A stretch of DNA of 51,635 bases, taken from a virus. The notes under the pieces were generated by a model. The model searched no databases, had not been told where the DNA came from, and saw only the letters and a list, made by a program, of their open reading frames with translations. This document shows, one piece after another, positions 235 through 50,039 of the stretch (positions within the stretch are counted from its first letter, which is position 1; the number at the start of each line of letters is the position of its first letter). The stretch covers positions 1 to 51,635 of the IMG/VR virus record IMGVR_UViG_3300001398_000005; one strand, written 5' to 3'. Both the position numbers and the translations under genes were made by a program.

Positions 235-1038
235 TTAGAAATCGTCCGAATGATCCTCGTCCGACACCTGGCGATTCATCTTCTGGCCCAAACGGTCACG
301 GTCTCTTATACCCGTCCAATAAGACCTATAATCCTCATAATGGTAGTCCGAGAGTCGCCAACGCAGGGCATCCAAGATCTTCCCTGAATTGGGCTTGTAG
401 TTATCCTTGAAAATGAACCTGATCTGGAACAGGGTGTGCGCCGGCCGGATGATATCGAGGATGATTCGAATCGAGGACTGCAGATCGAACAATCCCGGTG
501 GGAAGGTCCCATCGATGTTGATGTTGATTTGGAAGCCGAATTGATCTGAAATATCGAGGCCGGAAGCACCCGCTCGGGTCAATAGAAAGTTCTCAAGTAC
601 TTGGAAATCCTCAGAAATGAACAGAGACACGGCATCCTTGATGGACTCTGGTATCGACCCTTGGAAGTAGATCCTGATCAAAGATAGCAGGAAAGTACGG
701 AATTCAGTGTCGTCGAAATCAAGGGTTGGAAGCTTATTGCTCAGGAACGCCAAGTACCCAATGATGCTGTAGAGGAATTCAGAACGGGTGCGAGTGAAGT
801 CCCGATCCATGTCCACGTCTTCTAGAGCCAGCTCTATGCGGGCCATTTCGACCGCGACCGCTTTTAGCTCCACACTGTAATTCGGGCCGCAGATGGCACT
901 GACGTAGTTACTGGGCAATAAATTCAGTAGAGATGTAAAAATAGACTGAGAACGTTGCAGGACTCTGAGATTGTATTCCTTGCCGGATCTCTCCACAGAG
1001 AAATTTATCCGGTTGGGGTCGATTGTGAAACGAGCCAT
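235..1038 (-). CDS. Baseplate/tail protein, possibly gpI/gp7-like
   Basis: This 267-residue protein follows the BaseplateJ-like gene; its ATG overlaps the upstream stop (TGATG), and an AGGAG ribosome site lies upstream inside the J-like gene. The N-terminus MARFTIDPNRINFSV is followed by a mostly helical segment (about residues 25-150, with SIFTSLLNLLPSNYV and EFLYSIIGYLAFLSN) and a C-terminal part rich in beta and charged residues. In P2-like and T4-like phages the gene after the J/gp6 wedge protein is gpI or gp7, which joins the wedge to the fibres. I infer a similar role from position; no family signature is decisive. The C-terminus is very acidic (DEDHSDDF). Confidence 0.6.
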   Translation of the reverse strand: MARFTIDPNRINFSVERSGKEYNLRVLQRSQSIFTSLLNLLPSNYVSAICGPNYSVELKAVAVEMARIELALEDVDMDRDFTRTRSEFLYSIIGYLAFLSNKLPTLDFDDTEFRTFLLSLIRIYFQGSIPESIKDAVSLFISEDFQVLENFLLTRAGASGLDISDQFGFQININIDGTFPPGLFDLQSSIRIILDIIRPAHTLFQIRFIFKDNYKPNSGKILDALRWRLSDYHYEDYRSYWTGIRDRDRLGQKMNRQVSDEDHSDDF

Positions 1039-4000: not shown

Positions 4001-4451
4001 AGTTGAAGCCGACGAACTGAAACAAACCGCTCGAAGAAACCGGAACGGCAGCAAGGATGTCGACCGAGTCTCGTCTGCGGTTCGAGCGGATACCCGTAGG
4101 AATCAGAGCGTCAGAGCCGCTGATTTGAGCCACCATAGTCACAGTCGCCAAAGACACGGGGCTAACCCCACCCACAATGTCGATGGCTCGGATGGCAATT
4201 GTGTTTACGCCAAGGTCAAGGGTCAGACCGTCTGGGTAAGAAGCCGGGTTTGGGATCGTGAAAACTTGCCCATTGAGGCCGACCAAGCTGGGGTCTGACA
4301 CGAAGGACGCCCCATTGATCGACACCTGGATATCCACGGTATTGATGTCCACCGTGCCCGACAGGGAGATGAACTCAAGATTGGTAGTCAGAACCAGGTT
4401 TTGAGTAAACCCAGACCCGTCTCGAAGAGCTATTTGAGGTGCAGTTGCCAT
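1038..4451 (-). CDS. BaseplateJ/gp6-like baseplate wedge protein
   Basis: This 1137-residue protein has the BaseplateJ core at about residues 430-600. Visible hallmarks are GRPAVGQVVFYTPTRP, a hydrophobic strand YEIIADVVAQTIGSDGN, the sequence DRESNGDLAARAM and the GTEGGYTATAAGQVGIVKN segment, which matches the family pattern (ES-D-ALR-R ... GT--aY---A--V-GV). The C-terminal part (DVLVKQSILNDVALETTV, later SDIINAVDSTDGVDFQV) resembles the usual last wedge domain. J/gp6 proteins form the ring that closes the baseplate around the hub. The protein is two to three times the usual length because of an N-terminal Ig-like region (about residues 20-110) and further beta-rich insertions. The start ATG lies four bases after the stop of the preceding wedge gene; its ribosome site is weak. 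Confidence 0.85.
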   Translation of the reverse strand: MATAPQIALRDGSGFTQNLVLTTNLEFISLSGTVDINTVDIQVSINGASFVSDPSLVGLNGQVFTIPNPASYPDGLTLDLGVNTIAIRAIDIVGGVSPVSLATVTMVAQISGSDALIPTGIRSNRRRDSVDILAAVPVSSSGLFQFVGFNFYASATAGGTDGYFKVNATPVTTQSTQFQEDLLDIFDANTVFTAQKEVTVNVTTQDATGVPTTVYTNTANTFGLTGSLKFTGSMQSRALTQFIYFNHIRSTGANADQFIDVDASAPLYYVVTGVFYDTALAQELETPYSQEILGTPLTIDASIQDLPGRTQFQILLDFVSGIQASDQLISLIPGSTVRDITIDPFASEAERLWFIIDFVHKSSSFLTLLQIDDTNNDGVSDPVVSSPYKQALRAALGLQTDAAVQQLIDVQFDKLANNFMKPRLPGRPAVGQVVFYTPTRPTLDITIASGSIVSTDADPANNLPSVRYLVGGTFVLPAAQAGAFYNFSTRRYEIIADVVAQTIGSDGNRSAGEIVNIVSSVGGMQVTNTESTVFGTDRESNGDLAARAMLGFVSVDTGTEGGYTATAAGQVGIVKNKIVKSGDPLMMRDYDEVRHKHIGGKVDVWIQGLRERTVVERFAFSFDLATDIRCQIIDLPNLIFRVLDSRVTPNSPIVEILDNLSQNQGVRNATQGLNYNLSGVVIIDYQTFQVNTSIAQPVTAIDDIVTADYRFRSVNQFKFTLQPVRRVISVVGEASGALDVTAGFSLFKTEDPLLNGESTIASDYLVINQIGGVPTGASIPVNDEEHVIIGFFEESLASIGINTTTIRVFNQARSIEYAGPGSAIPDFDIVAGTSTTPVKIVRTNPSNIVSGQTVSVDYTHDENFTATYVINDLLQQLQRTISSRRHATADVLVKQSILNDVALETTVQLKPGATKDKVDPAVRSSVSIELDQKLIGQGVAQSDIINAVDSTDGVDFQVIPMAKMGYADGSRKLRESILSTANRTPSLDIGGNQVFILTNSLKFPTTDGGGLVTEHRGVFSDDEALVLSGAMPSVGQFSNQAYILGSEGAIIAGYSDDATLIAAGFTTATIVAAERLSLTANHVLLSLSGAGIPPDAPSDHVYAVSYTIRGDIGPHDITATQVEALDLGALTLTLRSA

Positions 4452-5603: not shown

Positions 5604-6331
5604 GCTCCGCTCTCCCCTGGTCCGACGAAGCCCGAGTTCTGGCGCTGTGCTGAACTCGAAGTGCCGTTCAAGACATCGTAAGAGCTGAACGGGGCGTAAA
5701 CATTGAAGCCGAAGGTGTCCCCGCCCGCGTCATCAAAGACGGCACGGTAGTTGTGATCCGTAAGGAACTGGTTGATCTGTACGGCGATGTACTCCAGGGA
5801 GCCCGAAATAGACGCTGCCATCTGGATGGTCTTTAGGTTGGCTACTTCCAACTGGAGCTGGTCAGAGTAGTCCACTGCCCTACGGATTTTCCGTTCAAGA
5901 GAGGCGAACCTGGCTTGCAGTGTATCGTCAATCCAAACCTGGGCCGATCGCATGAGTTCAGCGGTCGGGCTGTCGGACAACCCCTTGGCACCAATGACCT
6001 CGCCATTGCTCATGTATTGGGGGCCGTCGATTTCCGTCCCTCGAACGAGGAACACAGGGTCCGTGCGAAGTCTGACCCTAAGGTCGATGAAAGGGTTACC
6101 GCCCAGGACCTCGTAGGCACTAAGGAGCTTCCCCAAGTAGGACCCTGGATGGTCTGACTTGAATCCTTTGGGTACGCCCTTTTCGTATCGGAACGTGATC
6201 GTACCAATCCTAGCGATTTCAGCTTGAAGATGCTGAATTCGATCGGCGGCCAGAGGCAGTTGGGACCTCGCAAAAGCGAGGAAGCGTTCGAACTGACTGC
6301 GGTTGAACGTACCCAACAGATCATGCGCCAT
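5600..6331 (-). CDS. Virion structural protein (baseplate region)
   Basis: This 243-residue protein is of no family I recognise. It has an amphipathic N-terminal helix region (residues 8-45, RSQFERFLAFARSQLP), a middle beta-rich region including VRLRTDPVFLVRGTEIDG, and a long helical stretch at about 125-190 (LERKIRRAVDYSDQLQLEV). The last ~35 residues are Gly/Ser/Asn-rich. It overlaps the downstream wedge gene by four bases, and together with genes on either side it sits in the baseplate block, so a structural or assembly role is likely. The 70 bases upstream hold no clear promoter; a GAGG lies about 12 bases before the ATG. Confidence 0.65.
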   Translation of the reverse strand: MAHDLLGTFNRSQFERFLAFARSQLPLAADRIQHLQAEIARIGTITFRYEKGVPKGFKSDHPGSYLGKLLSAYEVLGGNPFIDLRVRLRTDPVFLVRGTEIDGPQYMSNGEVIGAKGLSDSPTAELMRSAQVWIDDTLQARFASLERKIRRAVDYSDQLQLEVANLKTIQMAASISGSLEYIAVQINQFLTDHNYRAVFDDAGGDTFGFNVYAPFSSYDVLNGTSSSAQRQNSGFVGPGESGA

Positions 6332-6401
6332 TGGTGGGATATCCTCTACATCTCATTGAAGGTACCTATGGACCCTCAAAAGTGGACTATGGGACGAAGA
6401 C

Positions 6402-8537
6402 TTACCCGAAGATAATGGAGAAAGCGTTCTTAAAAGCCGTGATGTCCGTAGCCACGTAGGCCAGACCGACACCCGAGGAGTACCCTCCAGGGCCACTGGG
6501 AGGGATCGTGCCACCGGCTGAATCAATGGCAGAGACCCAAGATTGGGACCCTCCCGTCAAGGACGGAACACTCAGGACGTAAGCCCCTAGTTGTAAGTTG
6601 GCGATAGTATTGAGTATGTTGATCAAGAACTCGATGAATCGCTCTAAGGCCGCAATTTTTCTCTCGATGAGGTCGATAAAGGTTTTGATTTCAGTCATGA
6701 CCCCGCCAAAAGCATCCAACAGAGCCTGGATCTTATCCATGAGGTCGTAGATCAGCTGCCCCGCCCACGGGATGATGTCTCGTAGGGGTTCCACGGAAAT
6801 CCAGTCGGCGCCTGTACCTCCCAGAGAGTAGACCTTCACGAACTGAATCCCAGCCAGAACATTGGAACGCACGCCCGCATCCGAGTACCCCGCCGCAAAG
6901 GTCTGGGCTCCGTTTGAGTCGGCATTGCCTTGGGCATCTAGGATTGTGAATCCTTTCACGAGGCCCTCCAGTGAGGTGACGCCTCGCAAATTAAATCCGG
7001 TAGAGACCGCACCTGCTGGTAGTGGGCCCTGCATGATACTTCGGAACCCGTTCAGGGCCTCTGGACCTGCTTGAAGCAAAGCCGAAGCAACAGCGTCAGC
7101 CAACCTGGCAGACTCCCTACGCAAGGCCGTGACCTGCCAAGGCAGGACTGGGCTGAGGCCAGTGATGGGGTCTGGACTGAAACCAAGGACTACCGTTGCC
7201 GCAGAGAGCAACTCGCCTACAACAGTGAACGCCTGGTAAACCGCCATAGACGCGGCCATAGCAGACAGGGATCCTCTACCTATTTGCGTGGGCGCTGTGC
7301 TCCCCTTGTCTGCTTGTAGTTGGAAGTCAAGCGAAAAGGCCGTTTGAAATAGGGCGCGAAGATCTCCGACAACATCAAAGTTTGCAGGGATTCCGATAGG
7401 CATCGTAGCCGACACCACCCCCGAGGACTTACCCACGATGACCGACTCATTGGGGACTGAAGACGGCCAGTAGAGCACTGGGTACGTTGAGTCAATAGCG
7501 GAAATCGGCCAAGCTACCTGGTCCCCCGCCAATGCCAAGGACCCACTGTAGGCCCGAACACGGTAGTAGTAAGTTGTCCCAGGGGTCACGTCGTGGTCGA
7601 TGTACCTGAACGTCCCTAGATCCCCTAAAATAGCGGTAATAGACGTGTTGCTCAGGACCCTGTATGTCCTGAATTTGATCACCGGATCCCTGTACTCGTC
7701 CAACAACGGACCCCTGCGCATCACGGGTTGTGACGAATTGCCAATATTGGTGTACGTCACCCTATTGAATGTGACCTGCCCCGATGCTGTAGCCGTGGCC
7801 ATGTCAGAAACGTCTATTTTTTTGGACGCGGGATTGACCACAGACCTCTCGATCAGATAGTTGGGGGGGATGGCCTCCTCAGCCACCTTCGTGACAAGGT
7901 CCGTAAACCCGGGATTCGGGGTTTCTACGCTACTCGCCAAGGTCCATTGTAGTTCGATTCCAGAAACAGCGCTGCCAGCGAATATCGAGGCCACCTTGAG
8001 GATGGGGTCCCCGTTGGACCCAACCAAAGAAGCCTTCAAGTTGACTGGAGGCTCGAATCTGGGCGATGTGAACTCGCGACCAAAGAAGCGCATCAACTGC
8101 TTGATTCGAGCCAGCAGAGCGTAAGGACTCTCGGCATCCACCACCAATAGAACGAAGCCGCTGCTATCCGACCCTATCTGAGGTTGAGGGCGATTGAAGT
8201 CCTTAGCGTCGAACAGGCTAGCTTTGAAGCGGGTGGTGAAAGCGGGGAAACCACCCGAGTAGTGATCAAAATTGGGGTCCGAGGTGGGGTCCGGCACGTC
8301 GAAGTATGCGAACACCCCGGATTGCTTCAGAGACGTGAACAGGGACTCAATCAGCTGGATCAGAGCTTGGACCAAAGCAACGACAGGGTTGCCGAAATCG
8401 ATCAAGAACACCTTGATGGTGTCCAAAATAGCCTTGAGTACGTCAAGGAACACCAGCAGTGTCTCAAGGGCACTGTCCACAGGTTGCAGCAAATTCTTGC
8501 CAGGTACCTGTATGTCGAACGATTTCCAATTGGCCAT
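6402..8537 (-). CDS. Large baseplate protein with fibronectin-III-like domain
   Basis: This 711-residue protein begins MANWKSFDIQVPGKNLL and has long hydrophobic amphipathic helices near both ends (residues 20-70, LLVFLDVLKAILDTIKVF; and about 590-640, IERKIAALERFIEFLINIL). Between them, around residues 280-340, is a fibronectin-type-III-like strand pattern (FRTYRVLSNTSITAIL ... PGTTYYYRVRAYSG). Such domains are frequent surface decorations of phage tail proteins. It is translated two bases after the small gene at 8540-8737. I assign it to the baseplate from gene order and composition. No enzyme motif is visible. Confidence 0.7.
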   Translation of the reverse strand: MANWKSFDIQVPGKNLLQPVDSALETLLVFLDVLKAILDTIKVFLIDFGNPVVALVQALIQLIESLFTSLKQSGVFAYFDVPDPTSDPNFDHYSGGFPAFTTRFKASLFDAKDFNRPQPQIGSDSSGFVLLVVDAESPYALLARIKQLMRFFGREFTSPRFEPPVNLKASLVGSNGDPILKVASIFAGSAVSGIELQWTLASSVETPNPGFTDLVTKVAEEAIPPNYLIERSVVNPASKKIDVSDMATATASGQVTFNRVTYTNIGNSSQPVMRRGPLLDEYRDPVIKFRTYRVLSNTSITAILGDLGTFRYIDHDVTPGTTYYYRVRAYSGSLALAGDQVAWPISAIDSTYPVLYWPSSVPNESVIVGKSSGVVSATMPIGIPANFDVVGDLRALFQTAFSLDFQLQADKGSTAPTQIGRGSLSAMAASMAVYQAFTVVGELLSAATVVLGFSPDPITGLSPVLPWQVTALRRESARLADAVASALLQAGPEALNGFRSIMQGPLPAGAVSTGFNLRGVTSLEGLVKGFTILDAQGNADSNGAQTFAAGYSDAGVRSNVLAGIQFVKVYSLGGTGADWISVEPLRDIIPWAGQLIYDLMDKIQALLDAFGGVMTEIKTFIDLIERKIAALERFIEFLINILNTIANLQLGAYVLSVPSLTGGSQSWVSAIDSAGGTIPPSGPGGYSSGVGLAYVATDITAFKNAFSIIFG

Positions 8538-8794: not shown

Positions 8795-11700
8795 TTCAGG
8801 ATGTCCGCTTGGGCCTTGATCCGATTGACCCTTGCTATGTCCTTCTTGGCTAGGATTCCGTTCGTCAGGTTGATTCGAGCGTCGAGCCACACATACCTCC
8901 GATCATAAAGTCTGTCGCCAGAGGATAACTCGGCCTCCAAAGAGGCCACGTATCCTGTCGCCGATGTGATGGCTGTCCTACGAGCTGTAACCACTGCTTC
9001 CCTGGCGTTCAAATCCGTGGTCAATAGGCGCACAGCGTAGGCACCTGCATCCCCTACGACTGGGGCTAGAACAGTCACGAGGTTGAGAAACGGAGAAAGA
9101 GTAGCGTAGAAGATGCTCGAAGCCAAAGCCGTAGACAATATTCCCTGTAGAGGCTCTGCCGTAAGCCCAACTGTGGCTACGATCTGGAAAGTGATCCCTG
9201 TTGTATTGGTTGGAAACGTACCCTCAATGAGCAAAGAGGTCTGGCTCAGCACCTGCTGGACCTTGTAGACCCCAGCTGCCGCCCCGTTTCGAATGAACAA
9301 TAGGTCGGCGGTAGTAATCCCTGCGGTGATGAAGGTCTGGCCAGCTGACGTGAATGTGGACGTAGCCGACACGCCGTTCGTAGCCGTTACCAGAGTCGCC
9401 ATAGCCGTGTTGAAGAAAGAGTCGATGGAGGCTGTCTGATTGGCCACAACCACACCCTCCCCAGAAATGGCAGGGACCAGTTCAGCCACGACGATGGACT
9501 CCGAGACGCCCCCAAAGGTGCCTAGGGAATTGACTAGGCGGTAACCTTGAGCCGTGGCTGTGCTCGGGAAGGCTGTCACAGCCAAAACATGAGTAGAGAC
9601 CACTGCCGTGACTTGGCGGCGAAGGCCTGAAAGGGTGCCTGAGGTGATGACGATCGTCTGCCCTGGGACTACGCCCAAGGCAACGTAGTCCGCCGCGCTG
9701 TCAGTCAAAGTTGTAGTAGTGGACACGTCTCCCGTGCTCTGAACCAGATCGTTGCTCACCGTTACCGTGAACGAAAACCCACTGTCCACGGATGCAAAGG
9801 CTGGAGTCACCGTGGTCGTGTTCGAGGTATTGGCCGTGATCCTATGGTATCCAGAGAGGGCGTTTAGCCCAGTCCTAATCTCAACCAGGTCACCTATTTG
9901 AGGCGAAGGGCTGGGCCATGTCACTGAGTTCGTGATGATAGTCTTAGTCCCGTCCAAAGAACCCGTTCCCACGAATGTAGGAGTGGTGTGTACCCGCAAC
10001 GTTCCCGTAGAAGCGTTGATGACATTGAACTCTGTCGTTATGTATCCAGTGAGCCCATCCTCGGACACGACATCGGGGTTGAGGATCTGGAACTGCCTGT
10101 TGTTGTCATCGTCTTCGGTGCCACCGTCCAGGGCAGGGAACCTGTCAGGTGCCGTCAAAGTATTGACGATGGTTGCAGTCACATCCAGAACTTCACCGCC
10201 CCCAGAATTGGGGGGTGCTGGTTGAAGGGGTGTTGGCACCAGAGGATCGTTCCAAGGAGCGCTGGGAGCTTGATAGGTCAGTAGGCCCGCGTCCAGGTCC
10301 ACCCCAATGTCAATTCCTAGACGGTATTGCTTGAGGTAGGTCGTGTCTGCGGTCGACAAGCGTACCGTGGCTCCAATGGGGATGCTCACACCGACTCCAG
10401 CCGTCAATGTAATGGTGGTTGCCGAAAATCCTGATACCGTCATACCAGGGCTGTCCGCCACCAGGACCGCCCCATCCTGAGCGGTGATTGCTACCTTCAT
10501 GGTGTTGGCAAAAGACGGCCTAAGGAGGTCTGTAGAGCCAGTAGCGGCATCTACTGTGAGGACCGTACTACCAGCTCTGGCCAACTGGGTGGTCACAGCC
10601 CAGGGGAATCTCCGTTGGATTAATGGCACTGCCTTGAGACTCTTGGTCCCCGTATCCAGGATGGGATCCCCAGTCTTCAGCCCCACGGTCGGAACCGTAG
10701 CCCCGAACATGACCCGTTGTGTCGGGTAGAACCTACTGGTAGGTGCCGCCTTGTAGACTTCTTGGAAAGTGCCTACCGAGGTCACAACAAAAGGCGGACC
10801 CGTCACCGTATACGGGGCTGGGCTGATCTTGAAATTGTCGTCGATCTGGTTCGTCACAGCCGCGAAAGTTGCTCTGTACGGATTGTCAATGTTCCCGTCA
10901 AATAGGAAGCGGCCGTCATGGTCCCCCACTACCCTACCGTCGAAGTACTGGAGAGCGTCCTCCAGAGCATTCACAGAATCGTTATAGTACTTGAGGGTAG
11001 GCCGTGCTACCAAGTCCTCGTTGGACAGGTGACCTTCTTGGAAGAACACGGACTCACGGCCCTGCTCGAACAGCTTCGGGGAGGACGAGTTCTGTAGGAT
11101 GGGCCCTCCAGAGGGAGTGCTCGATTGGGCGTCCGACTCGTATTGCTGAGCTAGCTCTCCCCGGAAGTTGGTAAAGGTCTCCACACGCCAGAAGAAAGTG
11201 TCCGGAGCATATGTCGTGTAATCCGCCTTCAACGTCTGGTTCAAGAGCCCGTTCTGCTCAGTCGGAACGATTGTAAAGGTGTAGCTAGCTCGGAGCGAGC
11301 GCCCAGCATCAACAATAAGGTCTCCTGTGTAGAAAATCCCAATCTCCTCGTTCAGGCCCAGGGCAGAAACCACCGCCACGGACCCTGAGGCGTCGATCGT
11401 GTAGTCCGCAGGCGATGACAGGACTTTGCCCGACTGCCCATCGATCTTCCGAAAGACAGTGTAGACTTGCCCCAATTCAGGACTTCGCTTCGTCTGAACC
11501 TTGACTAAAGCCGTTGCCAGGATCGGGCGAACAGAACGCTTCAGATTCACACCTGAGTATTGCCTAGCCCCATTGGCGATGAAGGTGATCGTCGTCTTCT
11601 GAGCCTTAGCATCGTAAGTTGACCCAGCCACTAGATTGAAGTCCAGGAAGGTCGCCCCGTCTGTGATTTCCACGATCATTCCAGAGACGTAAGTCTTGGA

Positions 11701-29595: not shown

Positions 29596-30318
29596 TCAGT
29601 GGTTCGGCGTGCCGACCGACGCGCTGTTGCCAGCGAAGCGGAGGGAGTATCCAGCACCTGCCGTACCATTCGCTTGAACCGGCGACAGACCGGTGTCAAC
29701 GAACTCGCCGTATTGGCTGCGACCGTCGATGATGTCGGTCACAGTCACGCTTGAGTTCTCTGCGATGATAGCCGCATCCGAAGTCGTGCTCTTCGAGTAG
29801 CTGTTGATCCAGCAACCTTCGAAGAAGGTGAAGAGGGCACGAATTGGAGTCAGGAACTGATCTCCGTTCGCCTGAACAGATGCATTCGGAGCAGCCGAAA
29901 CGGTGACACCATCGAGGTCTTGGCTCGAAGCAATCTCCGAGATGACCATCTCTTGCTTGATGTCGAAGGGCCAACGGTGGTGCTTGAGCGAGCGCACGAG
30001 GCCGCTCACGCCGCCACGGTAGCCGACAGCTTGGAACACATCCACCGCGTAGAGGAGGGTCTTGTTCACGGTCAGTGTCATCGGCTCAGTCACCGACGGC
30101 ACTAGTTCGGCAACCTGATCACCGAAGCCGACGCCACGTACCGGATCGATGGTACGGGACTCGTCTTGACCGAACTCCGAAAGAGCACCGATCTGACGGA
30201 ACTCTTTCATTCCCACCATGAATGAAAAGACCTTGTTTTTTTGCGAAATTGCAGCACGAGTGGAAGGTGCTGTCCCTTGGCGATATATGTAGTTTGTGCT
30301 GTCAGATGGTTTGCCCAT
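29596..30318 (-). CDS. Tail tube protein
   Basis: This 240-residue protein has the size and position of a contractile-tail tube subunit: downstream of the sheath and upstream of the tail-assembly and tape-measure genes. Recognisable features are a strand-rich N-half (NKVFSFMVGMKEFRQIG, VTEPMTLTVNKTLLYAV), RWPFDIKQEMVISEIAS, and the typical segment FFEGCWINSYSKSTTSD near the C-terminus. The strong ribosome site AAGGAG lies 7-8 bases before the ATG, within the last codons of the HNH gene, and the two coding regions overlap by 17 bases. A hairpin terminator follows. High expression is expected for a tube protein and fits the strong ribosome site. Confidence 0.8.
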   Translation of the reverse strand: MGKPSDSTNYIYRQGTAPSTRAAISQKNKVFSFMVGMKEFRQIGALSEFGQDESRTIDPVRGVGFGDQVAELVPSVTEPMTLTVNKTLLYAVDVFQAVGYRGGVSGLVRSLKHHRWPFDIKQEMVISEIASSQDLDGVTVSAAPNASVQANGDQFLTPIRALFTFFEGCWINSYSKSTTSDAAIIAENSSVTVTDIIDGRSQYGEFVDTGLSPVQANGTAGAGYSLRFAGNSASVGTPNH

Positions 30319-31111
30319 GACTAATCTCCTTCACATTCAGCATGACCCAAATAGGTCTAGCGTGCTTAGTACTGTTGCAAGACTTACAAGCTGGTACAAC
30401 GTTCTCTGCCGTATGCGGGCCACCCTTTGATACAGGGATCACGTGGTCCATTGTGAGCTTAGTTTCAGCGAAACAGTAGGCACACTTATGATCGAACCAT
30501 TCAAGGATCCTCAACCACTCAGGCGCAGTCAACGTTTTTTCGACACGAGCCATATAGGCTGCACGGCGTGTCCATCCAGGACTCTTAACCTGATAACGCT
30601 TCTGGATCTTTCGGAAAGCTATCGGATTAGCAGCAATCCAAAGAGCATTTGATTGCCGATGACGCTTCTGATTGGTTCGGTACCAGCTCCTAGCTCGCTC
30701 CGCTGCTTCACGCTTTTGTTCGTTTGAACGTGAGGTCGAAGCCCACTGATCTCGTCTACGCTCAAGAATCTCTTCACGTTGAGGCCCATTAACATAGGCC
30801 TTACTAGCTTTGCCCTCGCACTCAAGACACCAACTGGATCGTCCATACAGCCCCCTGGCCTTCACTCGGAAGTCCGTAAGAGCCTTGTCGACATCACACT
30901 TAGGGCAGACCTTGTGGTCTGGTATCAGCACAAGCCGACGGCGCCTTCGACGTTCGACTTTCAAAGCCTCATACGCTACTGGGTCTTTCTTACGAAGACT
31001 TTGAGCGATCATAGTGCAAGACTTGCAAATCGATGCCGCACCAGTCCTAGGGTGGCGATAGAAGTCGTCCTTCTCGGACTTCTCCTTCAGGCAGTCTTCG
31101 CAAGTCTTCAT
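30302..31111 (-). CDS. HNH homing-type endonuclease with two zinc knuckles
   Basis: This 269-residue protein has two N-terminal treble-clef-like CxxC...CxxC units (about residues 4-32 and 71-100), a basic helical middle (EALKVERRRRRRLVLIPD) and a C-terminal HNH domain. The HNH signature reads CAYCFAETKLTMDHVIPVSK, then TAENVVPACKSCNSTKHAR, with the DH pair near residues 222-223, a central Asn and a CxxC zinc pair, so it looks catalytically complete. Free-standing HNH genes between virion genes are typical phage homing elements that cut related genomes near their own locus. It has no clear ribosome site of its own and lies 20 bases after the upstream gene. Confidence 0.88.
   Translation of the reverse strand: MKTCEDCLKEKSEKDDFYRHPRTGAASICKSCTMIAQSLRKKDPVAYEALKVERRRRRRLVLIPDHKVCPKCDVDKALTDFRVKARGLYGRSSWCLECEGKASKAYVNGPQREEILERRRDQWASTSRSNEQKREAAERARSWYRTNQKRHRQSNALWIAANPIAFRKIQKRYQVKSPGWTRRAAYMARVEKTLTAPEWLRILEWFDHKCAYCFAETKLTMDHVIPVSKGGPHTAENVVPACKSCNSTKHARPIWVMLNVKEISHGQTI
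30326..30331 (-). promoter_or_regulatory. Tube gene ribosome site inside the HNH gene
   Basis: AAGGAG on the minus strand, eight bases before the tube ATG (30316-30318), lies within the last codons of the upstream HNH endonuclease. The nuclease gene therefore carries the translation signal of an essential gene. Confidence 0.75.
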
Positions 31112-40500: not shown

Positions 40501-41262
40501 CTAGGGTTTGAGCACAAGAGGAGTAGCGACAGGAAAAGCGTATCTGTATTGTCGAGTACGATTTCTCTCGGACATCTTAGACTTCTCCTGAATGAGCCTC
40601 TCTAGGTCCCACGTCCAGCGTCGAATAGTTGGCCTAGGAATACCGTATTGCCGTTCGGCGGCTCGAAAACCGTGCTCTAGGGCATATGCCGTAACTTCAG
40701 TGACTACCTCATCAGAGTACTTACGCTTCGAAGCGCTCAACTTTGCCCTGGAGGCATCGGATAAAGGGGGCCTATTACGACTCCCCTCGGCCTGCTTCAA
40801 CCTAGTCTCAAGACTAGAGACAGACCCTCGTTTAGTGTGGCTGACTTTCTCCCGCAATGCCTTGGCTTTCTGGTCATCAGATGCATGCCAAGCCTTAAGA
40901 GTCTGGCTAATCTGCTCCAAGACACTGTCGGGAGCACGCACCCCTAATGACCCCTCCCCACCACTAGTGCTGTTGTAACCTTTCTGAGGATTGCGTGTGT
41001 CATATTGCTGGATAAGTGCGATTTCCCTAGCACAAGCAGCTTGCCAGGTTGGTACATGGGCCACTACTTCCCAAACAAAGGCATTGGCACCGTACTTCCG
41101 CAAGGCTCGATGGAAGTAGTAGGGGGAACCCCTACTAGCTGAATTGAGGTGTGCTCTTTTGCGCACCTTCAGATTTTTGGACGTAATGCCAATGTAGATC
41201 TTGCCGTTAACAGAGCATGTTGCCACGTACACAACAGCCTCACCATCGGCGGCCCCTCTCAT
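40501..41262 (-). CDS. GIY-YIG homing endonuclease
   Basis: I start this gene at ATG 41260-41262, which overlaps the upstream stop (TGATG); a TTG one codon earlier is also open. The N-terminal ~95 residues are a GIY-YIG nuclease: VVYVATCSVNGKIYIGITS holds the two tyrosine motifs (first one degenerate), the catalytic Arg is likely in KVRKRAHLNSA, and the catalytic Glu lies in ACAREIALIQQY, followed by GYNSTSGGEG. The C-half carries a NUMOD3-like segment (LSDASRAKLSASKRKYSD) and a helix-turn-helix (GFRAAERQYGIPRPTIRRW) that would read the target DNA. Free-standing enzymes of this type move by cutting homologous sites. It sits between a zinc-ribbon protein and the sheath gene. Confidence 0.9.
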   Translation of the reverse strand: MRGAADGEAVVYVATCSVNGKIYIGITSKNLKVRKRAHLNSASRGSPYYFHRALRKYGANAFVWEVVAHVPTWQAACAREIALIQQYDTRNPQKGYNSTSGGEGSLGVRAPDSVLEQISQTLKAWHASDDQKAKALREKVSHTKRGSVSSLETRLKQAEGSRNRPPLSDASRAKLSASKRKYSDEVVTEVTAYALEHGFRAAERQYGIPRPTIRRWTWDLERLIQEKSKMSERNRTRQYRYAFPVATPLVLKP

Positions 41263-41684
41263 CAAGTCTCGCCTTTTTGTTTGGCACGAATCTCTTTGAC
41301 CTCTTTGGCCAGACCCTTTCGGCCCTTGATGAGGCCATCTGACCCGGCCTTGTATTCGATGTAGTCTTTGCCGGTTTCCCGAATCAAAGCGTGGGTTCCA
41401 CCCTTTTTCCGTACCTTGGACTTCACCACTTCCCTGGCAGCATGCTCCTGCCAGCGCTTATCCGCGTCACTGCCCACAGCATAATCCGCCGTAGGATAGT
41501 CATGCTTGGACACCCCAGAGTTGGCCGGGGCCTTACCTCCTGGGGCAAAAGCGAACCCAAAGCCCTCCCAAACCCTAGTGGCGTCTTTGCCACAAGCAGG
41601 GCACTCATGGGTCTTGTGCTCACCCATCTTTAGGGTGCGGGTAAATTGGGTCTCGCAGGCACACTCAAAAGTGAATTTCGGCAT
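41262..41684 (-). CDS. Small zinc-ribbon protein
   Basis: This 140-residue protein begins with a zinc ribbon of the FmdB/phage type: FECACETQFTRTLKMGE, then CPACGKDATRVWEGFGFAF. Four cysteines (positions about 8, 10, 28, 31) can hold one zinc ion. The C-terminal half is Lys/Arg-rich helix (EVVKSKVRKKGGTHALI, GRKGLAKEVKEIRAKQ). It is coupled to the genes on both sides by one-base stop/start overlaps. It could be an assembly factor or a nucleic-acid-binding protein. Its place between the putative tail terminator and the sheath suggests a tail-assembly role. Confidence 0.65.
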   Translation of the reverse strand: MPKFTFECACETQFTRTLKMGEHKTHECPACGKDATRVWEGFGFAFAPGGKAPANSGVSKHDYPTADYAVGSDADKRWQEHAAREVVKSKVRKKGGTHALIRETGKDYIEYKAGSDGLIKGRKGLAKEVKEIRAKQKGET

Positions 41685-42847
41685 CAGGCAATCCTCTCAT
41701 AATCATCATTTCTGCCCTCAAATACCGGGTGCGTCTGGAAGAACACCTCCGAGGCTATCGCCTGAATACCCGAGGGATTGTTTGAGTCACTCGCAGAATC
41801 TACGCGGCTAATCACTAGGGGTAGAGGCACATGGACTTCCCAATCCGCCCGCAATTGAAGGGACATCGAAGCCTGGTAGAAGAAGTTCTCCCCCGTTTCG
41901 TCGGCTATTTCCTCACCCTCACTGCCCATCGAAATGTCAAGTATTTCGATCCCCTCAAATTCAAGCCGACTCTTCTTGTCAGAGATTAGGTACATTGTCA
42001 CAAGGTCTGCGATCTCTTCCATTTGAACGGGATCCCTTGCGATCACATCAAAGTCGAAGGAGACCTCGAACTTGCCGCCAAAGGCCTGGGCAGAGTCCAC
42101 ACGGTCCTGATACACGACTACAGCGACCTTCTGGCCTGCCCTAGATCGTTTACCAAAAGCAAGGACAGCCCCGGGTAACGTCTTCCAATCCGCCTGATTC
42201 CAGAAAAACTCAATCGGGCCTATAGAGGTACCCGCCCAACGATAGTCCGCGGTCACCTGAGTCCCTTGAGGGAGGCTTGTCAAGAACTCTACAGACCCCG
42301 TCGTGTAATCCACGGTGTAGTCCAAACCCTCTTTGAGTTGGAAATTACCGTTCGCGTAGAGGCGAAGGGTGTGATTGAGTGGCACGTGCTCTAACTGAGC
42401 CTCTTGGAGGATGCCCGAGCGAACGACAGACAACAGACGATCCAAGACCGTGTACATGGGGTCCATGGCGTAGTGCCCCGCCTCCCCCACAACTGTAGGC
42501 GCCGTCAAGATCTCGATCAGATAGACCCCAGGAGGGACGGGCATTTTCCCCCCACTTGCACGCACAGCTCGACTGTCCTCTCGAACCCATTCAATGGGGT
42601 ATTCGGGTTGACCTACGTACGCCAACATCACATGGCTTTCAATAGTGCCCATGTAGTTGTCGGCAGCTAAAGACACCTTGTTCGTGCTGGAACCCTTGAC
42701 TACAATCCCGTACTGGGGTCGCTCGTCAAACGCAAAACGGTTCTCGATGAAGGGAACGATCTTGTTGTATACGGGGTGATTCGAAAAACTGTCCTTGAGT
42801 TCAAGGATGACTCTGCGCTTCAGGGCCCCTACGAGATTAAAGTACAT
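41684..42847 (-). CDS. Virion protein upstream of sheath, possible tail terminator
   Basis: This 387-residue protein has a helical N-terminus (MYFNLVGALKRRVILELKD) and a middle region of strands (PVPPGVYLIEILTAPTVVG, GLDYTVDYTTGSVEFLTS, QVTADYRWAGTS). The C-terminal domain (SFDFDVIARDPVQMEEIAD, LVTMYLISDKKSRLEFEGI, LQLRADWEVHVPLPLVI) resembles the compact alpha/beta fold of tail terminators and connector proteins. In myoviruses the terminator is encoded just before the sheath, as here. I infer this from order and predicted strands only. It starts four bases after the actin-like gene and ends in a TGATG overlap with the zinc-ribbon gene. Confidence 0.6.
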   Translation of the reverse strand: MYFNLVGALKRRVILELKDSFSNHPVYNKIVPFIENRFAFDERPQYGIVVKGSSTNKVSLAADNYMGTIESHVMLAYVGQPEYPIEWVREDSRAVRASGGKMPVPPGVYLIEILTAPTVVGEAGHYAMDPMYTVLDRLLSVVRSGILQEAQLEHVPLNHTLRLYANGNFQLKEGLDYTVDYTTGSVEFLTSLPQGTQVTADYRWAGTSIGPIEFFWNQADWKTLPGAVLAFGKRSRAGQKVAVVVYQDRVDSAQAFGGKFEVSFDFDVIARDPVQMEEIADLVTMYLISDKKSRLEFEGIEILDISMGSEGEEIADETGENFFYQASMSLQLRADWEVHVPLPLVISRVDSASDSNNPSGIQAIASEVFFQTHPVFEGRNDDYERIA

Positions 42848-42853
42848 CCGGCC

Positions 42854-43882
42854 TCACTTGTCGGATTCGTGTTCTTCCGAAGCCAGTACTAGCATGCCCT
42901 CAGCCACCGCCGTCATCGGGTCCTTGGCGATACGGATCTCGCTGATCTGAATCGGGAACCTCTTCTTGACGGTATCGAACTCTTCCTTGAATATTTCGAG
43001 AAAGCCTGCCGCCTTAGTGGTACCGCCGGAGACGATGAAGGGGATGGGCTCTGGAAGGCTGACATCGTTCTGCACCTTCTTGAATTGAGCCGCCACGTTC
43101 TGTAGGGTGTAGTTGATGAGGGCCCTCACGTAGAGAACGATGGCCTGCTCCTCACGTCCGTTGGGCGTGCGAAGGTCGACACCCTTCTCTTTGATGGCGC
43201 ACATCTGGGAAGCCGTCTTACCCATGGCCTTGGCCGACTGAGCATCGATCCAATCCCCACCACGAGCTAGGGCGAACTCCAATGCCTTGTTCGCCTGGTA
43301 GGACAGGGCGATGTTCGCCATACCAGCACCGAAGCTCACGGCCAGTCCGGAGAAGCTCTCCTCGGCACACTGGCTGTAGATGATGGCCATGGCCTCGTTC
43401 ATGGGGTGGGCCGAAAAGCCCGCGTCACGGACGATCTTACGGAAGACTTCCGTGTGATAGATCACGTCCTGTGAAGGGTCATCGATAGGGGCCGCAGGGA
43501 CGCTGTAGAAGCAGTGTTCACTGTCCACCTGAGGGTCGCCCAAGACCTGATTGATCAAGAGGCTCAAGACCTCCTGGGCGTCTATTTCACCAGCGGCGAT
43601 GAGACCGCGGCTGAGGGGTCGACGAGCCTCCCGCTTGAACAAGTTTGCCATCGTCAAAGCTGAGTCACCCAGTACCAACAATACGTTGTCAGATTCTCGC
43701 TCCACATAATCGACCTTGGACATCTTCAAGCTGCGCTTGGCGTCAGGGTCGAGGTCCAAGAAGGCGTCACGGACACGCTTGGTGACAACGCCGTTTTCCT
43801 TGGTCCTGGCGGACACAATATTCATTGTGCCGATGTCTAAGCCAATTCCTAGAGTGTTTCCTGGCTTTGCTTCATTTTTCAT
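42854..43882 (-). CDS. Actin/MreB-like ATPase
   Basis: This 342-residue protein belongs to the actin/Hsp70/MreB ATPase superfamily. The phosphate-1 loop is GIGLDIGTMNIVSA (residues 12-25), the connect region contains NEAMAIIYS (about 162-170), phosphate-2 is AVSFGAGMANIALS (181-194), GGDWID follows at 208-213, and the adenosine motif is PFIVSGGTTKAAGF (281-294). The end DPMTAVAEGMLVLA matches the MreB-type last motif. All nucleotide-binding elements therefore look intact. The length matches MreB or ParM rather than Hsp70. Phage actin homologues form filaments (for example in DNA segregation), but one inside a neck/tail operon beside a Dps-like gene is unusual. An AGGA site lies eight bases before the ATG. 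Confidence 0.85.
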   Translation of the reverse strand: MKNEAKPGNTLGIGLDIGTMNIVSARTKENGVVTKRVRDAFLDLDPDAKRSLKMSKVDYVERESDNVLLVLGDSALTMANLFKREARRPLSRGLIAAGEIDAQEVLSLLINQVLGDPQVDSEHCFYSVPAAPIDDPSQDVIYHTEVFRKIVRDAGFSAHPMNEAMAIIYSQCAEESFSGLAVSFGAGMANIALSYQANKALEFALARGGDWIDAQSAKAMGKTASQMCAIKEKGVDLRTPNGREEQAIVLYVRALINYTLQNVAAQFKKVQNDVSLPEPIPFIVSGGTTKAAGFLEIFKEEFDTVKKRFPIQISEIRIAKDPMTAVAEGMLVLASEEHESDK

Positions 43883-43904: not shown

Positions 43905-44561
43905 TCAACGGAAGTCGTAGGACTCCGTCTTAGAGCGCTGACTGAGCAAATACACGAAGGTCTCGTGCTTGTCGGCAATGTCTTCAAGGAGCTTAGAAAT
44001 CCCATGACTTAGGGTTCCGTCTGCTGTTTTACTTGCAATGAGCTGTGCAACTGCGGCCACACAGGAGGTCTCTGCGGCCAGACTGATTGCGATCATGTCC
44101 GTAGGGAGGCCCCCTACCCCTAACGAACCCAGGATACGGCTCATGATGCCTACTTGAAAGGCGGCACCGATGTTCGGAGTGTCCCCCGAACCCACAATTC
44201 TCTCCGCCAACTGATCAATAAGTTCGAGAGACTCGTTGTAGAGCCTCTCGAAAAGCAAGTGGTCTTGGAAGAAGCTAGCGCCCGACGTGCTCCAATGATG
44301 CGATTGATGGAGCATGGCCAATGCCTGAAGCATCGCCAGCATCGAGGTCATAGACGTTTCGTATTCGGCCGTAATTAAGGCCGCCTTCTTGACCAGGCCC
44401 TGGATTTCGCCACGTTGCTGGCTGCTGAGTTTTACAGGCTCGTAGGATGCCTTGGGAAGATAGGGCGGGCCGTGTCGCAAGGGGTCGAACTGCGTCGGCT
44501 CATGCCAGACCACACGAACGCTCTCTTCATGAGGATCCTGGGCATTTACACGTTTTGACAT
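43905..44561 (-). CDS. Dps/ferritin-like protein with ferroxidase ligands
   Basis: This 218-residue protein has a ~55-residue Pro-rich N-terminal extension and then a four-helix Dps-type domain. Residues 89-122 align without gaps to the Dps signature as I recall it: HWSTSGASFFQDHLLFERLY then NESLELIDQLAERI. The ferroxidase ligands correspond to His89, His101, Glu105 (Asp in most Dps), Asp116 and Glu120. The last helix (ASKTADGTLSHGISKLLEDI, then ADKHETFVYLLSQR) also fits the family. Dps proteins form 12-subunit shells that oxidise and store iron and may coat DNA. It lies 22 bases before the actin-like gene and 31 after a coiled-coil gene. A structural role in the virion after loss of activity is possible, but the ligands are conserved. 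Confidence 0.8.
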   Translation of the reverse strand: MSKRVNAQDPHEESVRVVWHEPTQFDPLRHGPPYLPKASYEPVKLSSQQRGEIQGLVKKAALITAEYETSMTSMLAMLQALAMLHQSHHWSTSGASFFQDHLLFERLYNESLELIDQLAERIVGSGDTPNIGAAFQVGIMSRILGSLGVGGLPTDMIAISLAAETSCVAAVAQLIASKTADGTLSHGISKLLEDIADKHETFVYLLSQRSKTESYDFR

Positions 44562-44592: not shown

Positions 44593-45192
44593 TCAGCCTT
44601 TAGCCTTCTTACGGAACTCCCGAAGCTTGCTGGCGGCCCCTCCGACACCCTCGGAAGAAGTGCTCTCCGTGATGTTGATTCGGGCCTCCCCCAGGTCCTG
44701 GCTCAAGTCTGGCAAGAACATGGGGGCATCTCCACCCACCACTTCGCTGACCGGAGTCATAGGGCTCATTCCAGGAACTGTTGTACCTACCGTGTTCACC
44801 ACCTGCTGAATGACCTTTGGGGCTGCCTCGATACGACCCAAGGCTAAGAGCACGGCTGACATTTGATCCTGTAAAGCCCCCATGCCCGACTTCAAGTCGG
44901 CATTCTGCTGATTTGCCTGCTCCAAGGCTTCCTTGAGGCGGGCATTCTCTAGTTCCAGTTGAGCCAGTTTATCAGCGTCCACGGACGACCCCACGTTCTC
45001 TTGCTGACCCATCACACTGTCGAGTTTGAAGATCATGCCCGAATTGATGGCTCGGTGCAGATCCTTAGACTTCAAGTACTTCTCGATCGGGACATAGACC
45101 CCGACTTTGTGGGGGATCATCATCTGGATGTCCGTCACGAAATGGCCACCTGAGGTCAAGCCCACGACTGATACTCCGCCTACATCGTTCAT
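44593..45192 (-). CDS. Coiled-coil virion-region protein
   Basis: This 199-residue protein overlaps the preceding gene by four bases (ATGA). The first ~60 residues are a small alpha/beta region (GLTSGGHFVTDIQMMIPHK, EKYLKSKDLHRAINSGMIF). Residues ~70-125 form a clear coiled coil (DADKLAQLELENARLKEALE, QANQQNADLKSGMGALQD). The rest is Pro/Gly/Ser-rich with a basic C-terminal tip (LREFRKKAKG). It is directly upstream of the Dps-like gene. I know no family for it. A linker, scaffold or assembly role is plausible from the coil and location. Confidence 0.6.
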   Translation of the reverse strand: MNDVGGVSVVGLTSGGHFVTDIQMMIPHKVGVYVPIEKYLKSKDLHRAINSGMIFKLDSVMGQQENVGSSVDADKLAQLELENARLKEALEQANQQNADLKSGMGALQDQMSAVLLALGRIEAAPKVIQQVVNTVGTTVPGMSPMTPVSEVVGGDAPMFLPDLSQDLGEARINITESTSSEGVGGAASKLREFRKKAKG

Positions 45193-45689
45193 TTGATTCT
45201 CGCTAGGGAGGTTTGAAGTTGTTTTCTGAGCTGCTTCCCGAGTCTGTCCTTGATCACCGTCCTGGCAGCATCTTTTGCCTTGTCAAGGATGTGTGTGGAC
45301 TCCCTTTGGGGATGGTACCAACGACCTCGGGCCATAGACCTGGGGGTCGCCGACCTGAAGATCAACTCCCCTGTATCCGTAATGATAGGGATCGGCTTCT
45401 TAGCCTTCGTAAGCCAAGTCATCTGCTGCCTGGACTTGCCCTCCAAAAGAGGGAAGAAGGCAGGATGGTGGGCAGTCACCGTAATACTGCTCTCAGCGAT
45501 CTTGGTAGAGAGGGCTTTCTTCAAAGCTCGTTTCGCCCTAGGAGAGAAGGCGGACTCTTCGATCTTACCCCGAATCTCTTCAAGGATCTCCCGCTGCAAG
45601 GACTTCAGGACCTTCTTAGGGTCGAACTTGTCCAGGGCACCCTTGGGTACCAACGGCTTGTAATAGATCTTGAATTTAGGCAAAAACAT
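45189..45689 (-). CDS. HK97-gp10-like neck/tail-completion protein
   Basis: This 166-residue basic protein (FDPKKVLKSLQREILEEIRG, PRAKRALKKALSTKIAESS, ending DRLGKQLRKQLQTSLARIK) has long helices flanking a small strand region (TVTAHHPAFFPLLEGK, IITDTGELIFRSATPR, ARGRWYHPQRESTHILDKA). This layout, size and position match HK97-gp10-type or related tail-completion proteins, which sit at the neck. Similarity is by pattern only. The gene starts two bases after the stop of the upstream protein and overlaps the next by four bases. Confidence 0.55.
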   Translation of the reverse strand: MFLPKFKIYYKPLVPKGALDKFDPKKVLKSLQREILEEIRGKIEESAFSPRAKRALKKALSTKIAESSITVTAHHPAFFPLLEGKSRQQMTWLTKAKKPIPIITDTGELIFRSATPRSMARGRWYHPQRESTHILDKAKDAARTVIKDRLGKQLRKQLQTSLARIK

Positions 45690-45691
45690 AG

Positions 45692-47056
45692 TTAATATAC
45701 GATGTTAGCCCATGTGATCGTGCGGCCGCGAAGCTCCCGTTCATCAGGGATCTCAGGCTTGTCTGTAATCTGAGCTGGGGAATTCAATGGAGGCACCGAC
45801 AACTGAGCCTGGTTAGGCAGGCCTCTGCTAGGGTTGTCCATCGGGACTAGGTAGCGAATGTCCTTCTCATCCAAGTGGCCAATGTTGAAGTGTTGCTGCA
45901 ACACCATACCACGATTAGTTGGCATCCTCACAGGGCCTATGGCATAGCGATCTCCGTTGATCTTGACAATGAAGTCTCGTTGGGAGAGCAATGGACTAGG
46001 GCCGCTCCAAACTTCGTAGGCGTGCTCTACGGTCCTACCAGTATTCTGCTGAGCGACCTTCCGCTCCATGTCGTCAGGAGCAATGATCAAATCGTAGGGC
46101 CCTTCGTAACCTCCCACAATGCCTGTATAGTAGCAGATCTGGCAGTCCCCCAGAGGCTGATGGTGCGTAGTCGTGTTGTAGCAAGGACAGATAGTGCCAA
46201 CGTTCTTCTTGATGAAGACCTTCACGCGCTCGCCACCTTGATCCAAAATCCAGTGATTTCTGCGAACAGCCTCCCGCCAGGCCCAGTCGAGCTTTTCTAT
46301 TTCCGAGTTGCTCGTGAAAGCAGCCCTTGCCAACTGCGTCTCAAGAAGTTCCCGGGGATCTGAGGGTCCCGCACCGTCAGTGTTGATCATCGTACCCACC
46401 GTGGTCACTCGGTAGAAGATACGCTGAGCCAAGTCCGTTCTCAGCAACGACCTACTGTACCGATAGCTCACAGTTACGACACTGCTGGGGCCAGGTACTG
46501 TCCCCAGGTCTTCGGTCTGCGTTGTGACGTTAGGATACGGGTTCGGGTCTATCTCGACCTCCCAAGCCTCTCCAAACACTCTAGCGAGCCTCGCTGTCAT
46601 CCCGTCGATCTGAACCTCCACATCGGAGATGGCGTTCGCATAGACCGCTTGAGAGCCTTCCTTGACGATCGGCCCCAACTGTGTGCGGAAGACGTACCTG
46701 GGGGCGTTCATCCCCGCTGCAACGTCTTCGCCACGCATGACCCACATGTCGTCAGTCACGACCTCATCAATGACCAAGGCGTTCTCTGTCTGGTCCCTCC
46801 AAAATGTACCCCCTAGAGGGTATTGGTTGATGCGGGTGTACGGCCCAAACTCGGAATCGAACGAGCGATAGATGTTGACGCCGCAAATCTGGAAATTGCC
46901 GTTGACGGCCAACTGAGAGGGGTCAGTCCACGACAGGTCGAAAACACCTGGCTTGTAGCCGCTCGTCATGAACAAGTTGAGCGGGGCCGCAGGTTCGGCG
47001 GCCTTTGTCAACTCAAGCGTGGACGGATTCCGGTCTCGGTTTGAGGCGTAGGACAT
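45692..47056 (-). CDS. Neck/virion protein with Fn3-like domain and CxC..CxxC cluster
   Basis: I start at ATG 47054-47056 (MSYASNRDRNPSTLELTK), the first ATG with a GAGAGG site upstream (11 bases). ATG 47075-47077 and TTG 47087-47089 are alternatives. The N-terminal ~100 residues form an Fn3-like domain (GVFDLSWTDPSQLAVNG, CGVNIYRSFDSEFGPYTRI). A central helical region follows (IEKLDWAWREAVRRNHWILD), then a cysteine cluster: TICPCYNTTTHHQPLGDCQI and CYYTGIVGGYEGPYDL, with Cys at about 290, 292, 305 and 308. This cluster probably binds zinc and recalls neck/head-closure proteins of large myoviruses. The Arg/Asn/Pro-rich C-terminus looks disordered. Role inferred from position. Confidence 0.65.
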   Translation of the reverse strand: MSYASNRDRNPSTLELTKAAEPAAPLNLFMTSGYKPGVFDLSWTDPSQLAVNGNFQICGVNIYRSFDSEFGPYTRINQYPLGGTFWRDQTENALVIDEVVTDDMWVMRGEDVAAGMNAPRYVFRTQLGPIVKEGSQAVYANAISDVEVQIDGMTARLARVFGEAWEVEIDPNPYPNVTTQTEDLGTVPGPSSVVTVSYRYSRSLLRTDLAQRIFYRVTTVGTMINTDGAGPSDPRELLETQLARAAFTSNSEIEKLDWAWREAVRRNHWILDQGGERVKVFIKKNVGTICPCYNTTTHHQPLGDCQICYYTGIVGGYEGPYDLIIAPDDMERKVAQQNTGRTVEHAYEVWSGPSPLLSQRDFIVKINGDRYAIGPVRMPTNRGMVLQQHFNIGHLDEKDIRYLVPMDNPSRGLPNQAQLSVPPLNSPAQITDKPEIPDERELRGRTITWANIVY

Positions 47057-47097
47057 GGCTGGGTGGAACCTCTCCATCCAGCCAACCAATAAGAAAA

Positions 47098-49400: not shown

Positions 49401-50039
49401 TTAGAACCCTACGAACTGCCTGGGGCTTAGCACACCCCCACCTACATAGGGGCCAAAGCTGGATCGGATGCCAATCCCGAACTTGGGCTGCTGCAAGCCT
49501 CTGACGAACTTGACCGTGGCCTTGGCTTTGTCGAGCTGCGAATCGAACTGATCCTTCAGCGTCTGGTAGAGAGATTCATACTTGGATGCTTTTTCGATTT
49601 CCAGAGAAACGCCTCCAATAGAGTAGGAATTGTGGGCTAGGATACCGTTCGCAAGCACGAAGTTCTCTGGCCCGGGAACAGACAGATCGTAGGTGTGCTC
49701 TTGAGCTGGCAGTCTCTCCACGTTTGCCACAACAGCATCTTCTAGAACCCCGTCCACAGATGCGATCACATCTCCTACTCTTATCTCCTCAGCTTGTACC
49801 GGAGTCACACCATCACCGGATCTGAAAAACAGAGAGTGATCTACCGTCGTATCCACGAAACGTCCGTCCTGGACTGTAGTTCGGGTCATACTTTTATGTG
49901 AGGTGTTGTGCCGCATCACATCAGAGATTTTGCAAAGACTAGTAGTTCCAGATGTGGGGTCTACAGCCAAAACTCGAAGCTGTCCTGCCCTAAAAGCCTC
50001 ACGAATGGTGGTCTTACGTGTTTCTATGCATATTGTCAT
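49401..50039 (-). CDS. Split-intein C-half fused to C-extein of a virion protein
   Basis: This 212-residue protein starts with the C-terminal intein part (residues 1-137). Block B is TTVDHSLFF with His68. Block F/G is EHTYDLSVPGPENFVLANG followed by ILAHN, with the terminal His136-Asn137 pair and Ser138 as the +1 nucleophile. Early strands (LRVLAVDPTSGTTSLCKISD) and EEIRVGDVIASVDG complete the Hint fold, which lacks only block A. That block is encoded by the gene at 50986-51635. The C-extein (75 residues) begins SYSIGGVSLEIEKASKYESL and ends RQFVGF. Splicing would join it to ...INWVSDEF. The ATG overlaps the stop of the endonuclease gene (ATGA), so it should be translated by coupling. Confidence 0.88.
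   Translation of the reverse strand: MTICIETRKTTIREAFRAGQLRVLAVDPTSGTTSLCKISDVMRHNTSHKSMTRTTVQDGRFVDTTVDHSLFFRSGDGVTPVQAEEIRVGDVIASVDGVLEDAVVANVERLPAQEHTYDLSVPGPENFVLANGILAHNSYSIGGVSLEIEKASKYESLYQTLKDQFDSQLDKAKATVKFVRGLQQPKFGIGIRSSFGPYVGGGVLSPRQFVGF

Follow-up and report, generated by a model that had tools for sequence, protein, structure and literature searches.

A Dps-type mini-ferritin with a conserved N-terminal motif is encoded beside an actin-like gene in a phage tail module

Phage Dps genes have so far been read as stress genes acquired at the side. Dps proteins of the E. coli DNA-binding type carry a lysine-rich N-terminal tail, a feature that does not define all Dps proteins, and encapsulin cargo ferritins, as in the EncA/B/C system of Myxococcus, carry a short terminal peptide for loading. 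Iron in phage tails is reportedly already under discussion in the form of the "Ferrojan" hypothesis. In the available parts of the respective papers, the Dps of Lactobacillus phages, which is encoded near DNA-metabolism genes (PMC6669764), and that of gut "Gratiaviridae" (PMC8008677) are both read as oxidative-stress enzymes. Mass spectrometry of purified virions of Proteus phage Privateer revealed a Dps-family protein (QIN94861), the function of which is described as unverified in the available part of that report (PMC7881722). Volactin of Haloferax volcanii forms dynamic filaments according to the available part of the corresponding paper, in which the words phage and virus are absent (PMC10869688). 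Judging by titles and the openings of abstracts, no paper in the literature collection searched describes phage tail genes in which a Dps or ferritin is encoded next to an actin.

Here, we analyze such an arrangement in a virus record of 51,635 bases (the window, i.e. the whole stretch of DNA under study; Table 1). A Pfam search of the 218-aa ORF, which might have returned a different helical family instead, gave Ferritin (PF00210) with E=2.7e-9 and 37.5 bits against a cut-off of 24.5 over residues 74-201, while the alternatives, MatP_C and DUF5856, stayed below their cut-offs. DUF5856 recurs in 26 of 38 relatives up to E=0.01, but reaches no better than 1.3e-5 there, against 1.4e-10 for the best match to Ferritin, which is found in 35 of the 38 relatives at E<=0.01. 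By sequence, the nearest PDB entries are Dps proteins (E=2.9e-8 and 4.9e-8), and the top PHROG is phrog_3636, a phage DNA-binding protein family (E=1.3e-13). Together with the predicted fold, the Ferritin and PDB matches bear out the original prediction of a Dps-like mini-ferritin, and we regard it as close to certain that the product is a Dps-type protein. Among named phages, all Dps relatives that a search returned were weak, and in a scan of genome contigs none of 81 pattern matches was confirmed and no host or cellular sister was found.

Table 1. Coordinates of the features discussed in the text, given as positions in the window.
Feature	Position	Strand	Basis
Dps-like mini-ferritin gene	43905..44561	-	ATG start, 218 aa; Pfam, PDB Dps matches, AlphaFold2 model, fold search
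Probable docking peptide: N-terminal motif W-x-[DE]-P-T-x-[YF]-D-x4-G-P-P-Y-L-P, residues 19-36	44454..44507	-	Conservation in 38 sequences
Ferroxidase ligand stretch, residues 89-120 (H89, H101, E105, D116, E120)	44202..44297	-	Conservation among relatives
Core of four helices plus a short BC helix (residues 69-213, approximate)	43923..44357	-	Model helices and aligned range in fold comparison
Actin-like gene (Volactin family)	42854..43882	-	22 bases downstream of Dps, co-oriented; Pfam PF25216 and model
Coiled-coil protein, upstream of Dps, conserved in module	44593..45192	-	Weak coiled-coil Pfam matches; in most loci
Tail completion/Neck1-like protein	45189..45689	-	L053 homologue matches phrog_5, E=4e-10
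Probable virion structural protein	45692..47089	-	phrog_1004 E=0.0011; homologues phrog_38102 E=1.7e-6, phrog_1004 E=1.2e-4
Probable structural protein of the module, encoded between actin and sheath	41684..42847	-	phrog_11431 virion structural E=1e-4; syntenic in loci
Tail sheath, 1421 aa	36160..40425	-	Distant homologues in L070 and L065 match phrog_2839, E=1e-28 and 3.4e-24

The AlphaFold2 model of the Dps, a single chain built from 38 relatives, has a mean pLDDT of 86.4, with ten-residue means of 87 to 97 over residues 71-210 and of 54 to 71 over the first 40 residues. Its helices (71-91, 97-124, 133-147, 153-181 and 186-211) form a four-helix bundle with a short BC helix and without a fifth C-terminal helix. 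Dps chains rank first in Foldseek, with E values down to 1.7e-4 and with many rows having a high rmsd over the full alignment. In VIA-align, Dps chains score Z 17.3 (139 aligned, rmsd 2.3) and below, nearly tied with a mini-bacterioferritin (Z 17.0) and bacterioferritins (16.1-16.2) and, therefore, it is the ligand pattern and not the fold that points to Dps. The model also has fold matches to three BFVD entries from uncultured phages (A0A6J7XDU5, A0A6J7WPK9 and A0A6J7WIS1) that carry, as names only, the designation "Prohead protease". Possibly these are Dps-protease fusions that would place Dps in heads, which would fit head delivery.

The five residues originally assigned to ferroxidase positions, H89, H101, E105, D116 and E120, are all found there in the 218-aa ORF, and their spacing, H-x11-H-x3-[DE]-x10-D-x3-E, is that of the Dps ferroxidase site. 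In a non-redundant set of 50 Dps ORFs that includes two truncated ones, and with counts made over the ORFs covering each position, H89 and H101 are each present in 48 of 48 and D116 and E120 each in 49 of 49, while position 105 is acidic in 41 of 48 (E 30, D 11) and non-acidic in seven (M 4, Q 2, A 1). S. aureus Dps has E at the equivalent position, too, in the alignment of PDB sequences. The unvaried ligands in relatives lend indirect support to the proposed iron/oxidation function and, as judged from the sequences, this Dps-type protein of the tail module is likely to have ferroxidase ability. According to the title of PDB entry 1qgh, the Dps ferroxidase site is shared between two subunits; therefore, residues 89, 101 and 105 and residues 116 and 120 of one chain need not touch, and the monomer model neither confirms nor refutes the site. 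The end of the core is also conserved (YLLxQR within residues 200-218, with Q208 and R209 invariant in 38 sequences), as is, often, a final Y-x-Y-x-R at the C-terminus.

The late structural setting of the gene, which had been proposed from the sequence of the window, is corroborated by the matches to sheath, tail completion/Neck1 and Baseplate_J, the last of these at 1038-4451 of the window. With the actin neighbor as query, 68 loci were found in viral contigs, four of which were truncated and left out. A Dps-like ORF lies directly upstream of the actin gene and on the same strand in 57 of the 64 usable loci (47 of 54 without duplicates), and most loci keep the order 45692 gene, 45189 gene, coiled-coil gene, Dps, actin, 41684 gene, zinc-ribbon gene and sheath. 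The longest contig has 512,571 bases among those with actin loci and 528,957 among those of the Dps search. Seven usable loci have no Dps by the actin (L034, L050, L053, L055, L065, L070 and L071). In two of these, the near relatives L034 and L050, a small, different protein occupies the Dps slot of an otherwise retained module, and no Dps was found genome-wide in their 398- and 412-kb records, which are possibly incomplete, either; thus, Dps does not appear to be essential there. The other five have more distant actins and, therefore, the actin in the tail module looks older than Dps there. A Dps profile run over 25 records matched in 18 and, in LR745208 and the record of L055, the match is far from the actin. 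A scan for promoters and terminators was uninformative, with one promoter-like site on the opposite strand and terminator-like sites at about twice the shuffled mean. The tail operon also contains GIY-YIG and HNH endonuclease genes, which are probable homing elements (40501-41265 and 30302-31111, minus strand), and the window has an intein splicing domain match at 49401-50039 (minus strand, E=3.6e-14).

The product of the actin-like gene matches Volactin (PF25216) with E=2.1e-75 and 254.6 bits. The closest solved structure to its model (pLDDT 92.5) is the MamK filament (Z 28.0), followed by other actins and by Hsp70 with scores of about 24 to 26. Its glycine motifs are presumably the nucleotide site of an actin-like protein, and these putative nucleotide-site glycines and D16 are invariant in 38 actin sequences. 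A PDB sequence search with the protein gave nothing significant, and a search of named phages gave two uncultured records. Volactin-family actins are present in giant-phage tail modules even without Dps (L004-L073). In nearly all loci, including distant Dps-less ones, a coiled-coil protein recognized by similarity or by eye is encoded upstream of the actin, of which it could possibly be a filament partner. Among the loci outside the tail module, L160, L161 and L163 have another actin 3.4 kb away from the Dps; in L160, a shorter-class Dps without the N-terminal motif (5884-6447) is separated by this distance from another Volactin-like actin (9894-10898), away from recognized tail genes. The locus L070 has a 706-aa actin ORF (6360-8477) with an insertion that resembles an intein by eye. 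The presence of an actin in a tail operon may outrank the Dps in interest.

What is new here is a gap-free motif in the N-terminal extension of the Dps that is linked to tail-module position. In its majority-residue form, W-x-D-P-T-x-Y-D-x4-G-P-P-Y-L-P, the motif has 39 distinct copies without indels, found with a search pattern that tolerated some length change. Averaged over positions in 38 sequences, the commonest residue has a share of 0.72 both within the motif and within residues 78-124, which hold the iron site, compared to 0.24 before the motif and 0.30 after it, and the linker between motif and core is 17 to 57 residues long among Dps relatives. Residues 1-69 have a net charge of 0 in the window Dps and a median of -2 (range -7 to 5) in the 38 relatives. 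The extension is thus about neutral and has no lysine-rich tail; on its charge we reject it as a DNA-binding tail, and the earlier suggestion that it targets the protein to DNA finds no support. The broader idea that the extension is a targeting element has been sharpened to a fixed 18-residue motif tied to tail-module position.

This tie was seen in a Dps profile search, from which the best 80 of 213 loci were sorted by their neighbors, odd cases were read and repeats of earlier loci dropped. With a loose pattern, the motif is found in 55 of the 58 tail-module Dps of this non-redundant set; no motif was detected in L032 and L036, and L150 is cut by the contig end. Outside the module, a label that covers some short loci and means that comparison with the proteins of the window revealed no sheath gene at a distance of up to about 6 kb, it is present in none of 14 Dps of this set (12 of a shorter class together with L074 and L092). 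The shorter-class Dps, which is encoded away from tail genes, keeps H89, H101, D116 and E120 without the motif and, therefore, iron handling does not need docking. In a small, midpoint-rooted tree of the cores of phage Dps alone, without cellular Dps, ten of the 12 short-class proteins form one clade inside the tail-module group, and L149, L169 and the pair L074/L092 fall elsewhere. Given these separate positions, the link between motif and module does not appear to be a single event.

Among all stop-to-stop ORFs of at least 40 aa in 74 loci, only Dps ORFs carry the motif, which excludes an address tag common to many phage proteins. Similarly, a motif profile run over 18 records gave a single strong match at the Dps in each of 14 (E 5e-14 to 5.5e-8) and four further matches with E 0.128 or worse; the four records without a strong match are that of L036, two without Dps and LR745208. 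We consider it likely that the motif has a dedicated partner, and the most probable reading is that this partner is a virion or assembly component. A small protein starting with MHPRQAS is encoded separately upstream of the Dps in L036 (7018-7317) and is fused in frame to the Dps in L068 (6918-7934).

Based on these data, we suggest a model, to which we give about an even chance of being correct, in which the gene encodes an iron-oxidizing mini-ferritin that is produced late, along with the products of the tail genes, and that its peptide attaches to a virion or assembly component; here, we infer the dodecamer, the ferroxidase activity, late expression, docking, the partner and presence in the virion. 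The protein would oxidize Fe(II) and store the product, probably as a dodecamer, and would be made late, together with the neck, actin and tail-sheath proteins of this giant-phage lineage. Through the N-terminal peptide, on its flexible linker, the cage would dock to a partner that only these phages have and that most likely belongs to the virion or the tail-assembly machinery. As a result, the docked Dps might remove free iron and peroxide at the site of virion building or travel in the particle. The model draws on the Dps profile, PDB and fold matches, the unvaried ligands, the position of the Dps directly upstream of the actin in a neck-to-sheath module, a motif that equals the iron-site helices in conservation, lies between variable flanks, goes with module position and has one strong match per genome in 14 of 18 records, and the precedent of the Privateer virions. 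Against this model, L032 and L036 lie in the module without the motif, and the motif could bind the cage itself. Moreover, the position of a phage gene alone does not show presence in the virion; the Dps of GAP52, a relative of Privateer, is encoded among DNA-metabolism genes.

Alternatively, the protein could be a soluble, intracellular Dps that lowers free iron and peroxide in the infected cell at a late stage of infection, with the tail operon providing late timing only and the motif packing on or steadying the cage. The shorter-class Dps, which keeps the main ligands without motif or tail context, is compatible with this, as is the role in oxidative stress that the authors, in the available parts of those papers, assign to the Dps of gut and Lactobacillus phages. 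However, in several branches the motif goes with a position in the module, a pattern not expected from self-packing, and we consider a soluble Dps possible but rather unlikely. Still less probable in our view is that the Dps is cargo of the phage actin, with the motif as a tether between the cage and either actin filaments or the coiled-coil partner and iron being buffered at the assembly site: the two genes are adjacent in 57 of 64 loci, the actin model is closest to filament-forming MamK and the putative nucleotide-site residues of the actin do not vary among 38 sequences, but the actin and coiled-coil genes also occur without Dps. Finally, the location of the gene between neck and sheath genes would suit a ferritin fold that was recruited as a structural neck or tail part and lost its iron chemistry. 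By contrast, H89, H101, D116 and E120 are unvaried in every sequence covering them, and the module of L034 and L050 is retained except for the Dps. A purely structural role is unlikely because the ferroxidase ligands are conserved, so that recruitment of the fold for structure alone, one of the two options of the original prediction, is disfavored, and we give it hardly any weight.

The combination of a Dps in the tail module, a fixed motif and an adjoining actin makes iron chemistry in phage particles directly testable, and the motif is a handle for finding the partner of the Dps. We also speculate, although we find it doubtful, that giant phages build a ferritin cage into the contractile tail or neck, or hang it there, via a dedicated peptide, that the actin-fold ATPase of the same operon aids assembly and that the particle carries an iron-handling device. 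If true, this device would stay with the particle outside or enter the next host with it, serving as protection or as an iron lure during entry.

Dps-type genes are carried by Lactobacillus phages and gut "Gratiaviridae", as by the window phage, and the phage Dps family seen in the window also includes Privateer and its relatives, e.g. Cronobacter phage GAP52. However, the GAP52 Dps is encoded beside DNA-metabolism genes and matches the window protein weakly (E=0.1), and the Dps-type gene of Synechococcus phage S-SRM01 does not adjoin annotated tail genes. Among bacterial Dps, those of S. aureus (2d5k) and Nostoc (Dps4, 5i4j/5hjh) match the window protein in sequence with E 3e-8 to 5e-8 and share with it the ligand spacing, the four-helix core with BC helix and the fold; unlike these, the window Dps is encoded by a phage gene in a tail module and has the W...GPPYLP motif on an extension that is neutral and not lysine-rich. 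By analogy only, the design resembles that of encapsulin cargo ferritins, in which a ferritin-like cage protein is combined with a short terminal peptide, while the peptide of the window Dps, unlike theirs, is N-terminal; no Pfam match to encapsulin was found at E<=0.01 (E<=1 for ten ORFs) among 36 window ORFs scanned. Volactin of Haloferax volcanii belongs to the same PF25216 family as the neighbor of the Dps in the window, but the window actin differs from it in being phage-encoded and embedded in tail genes.
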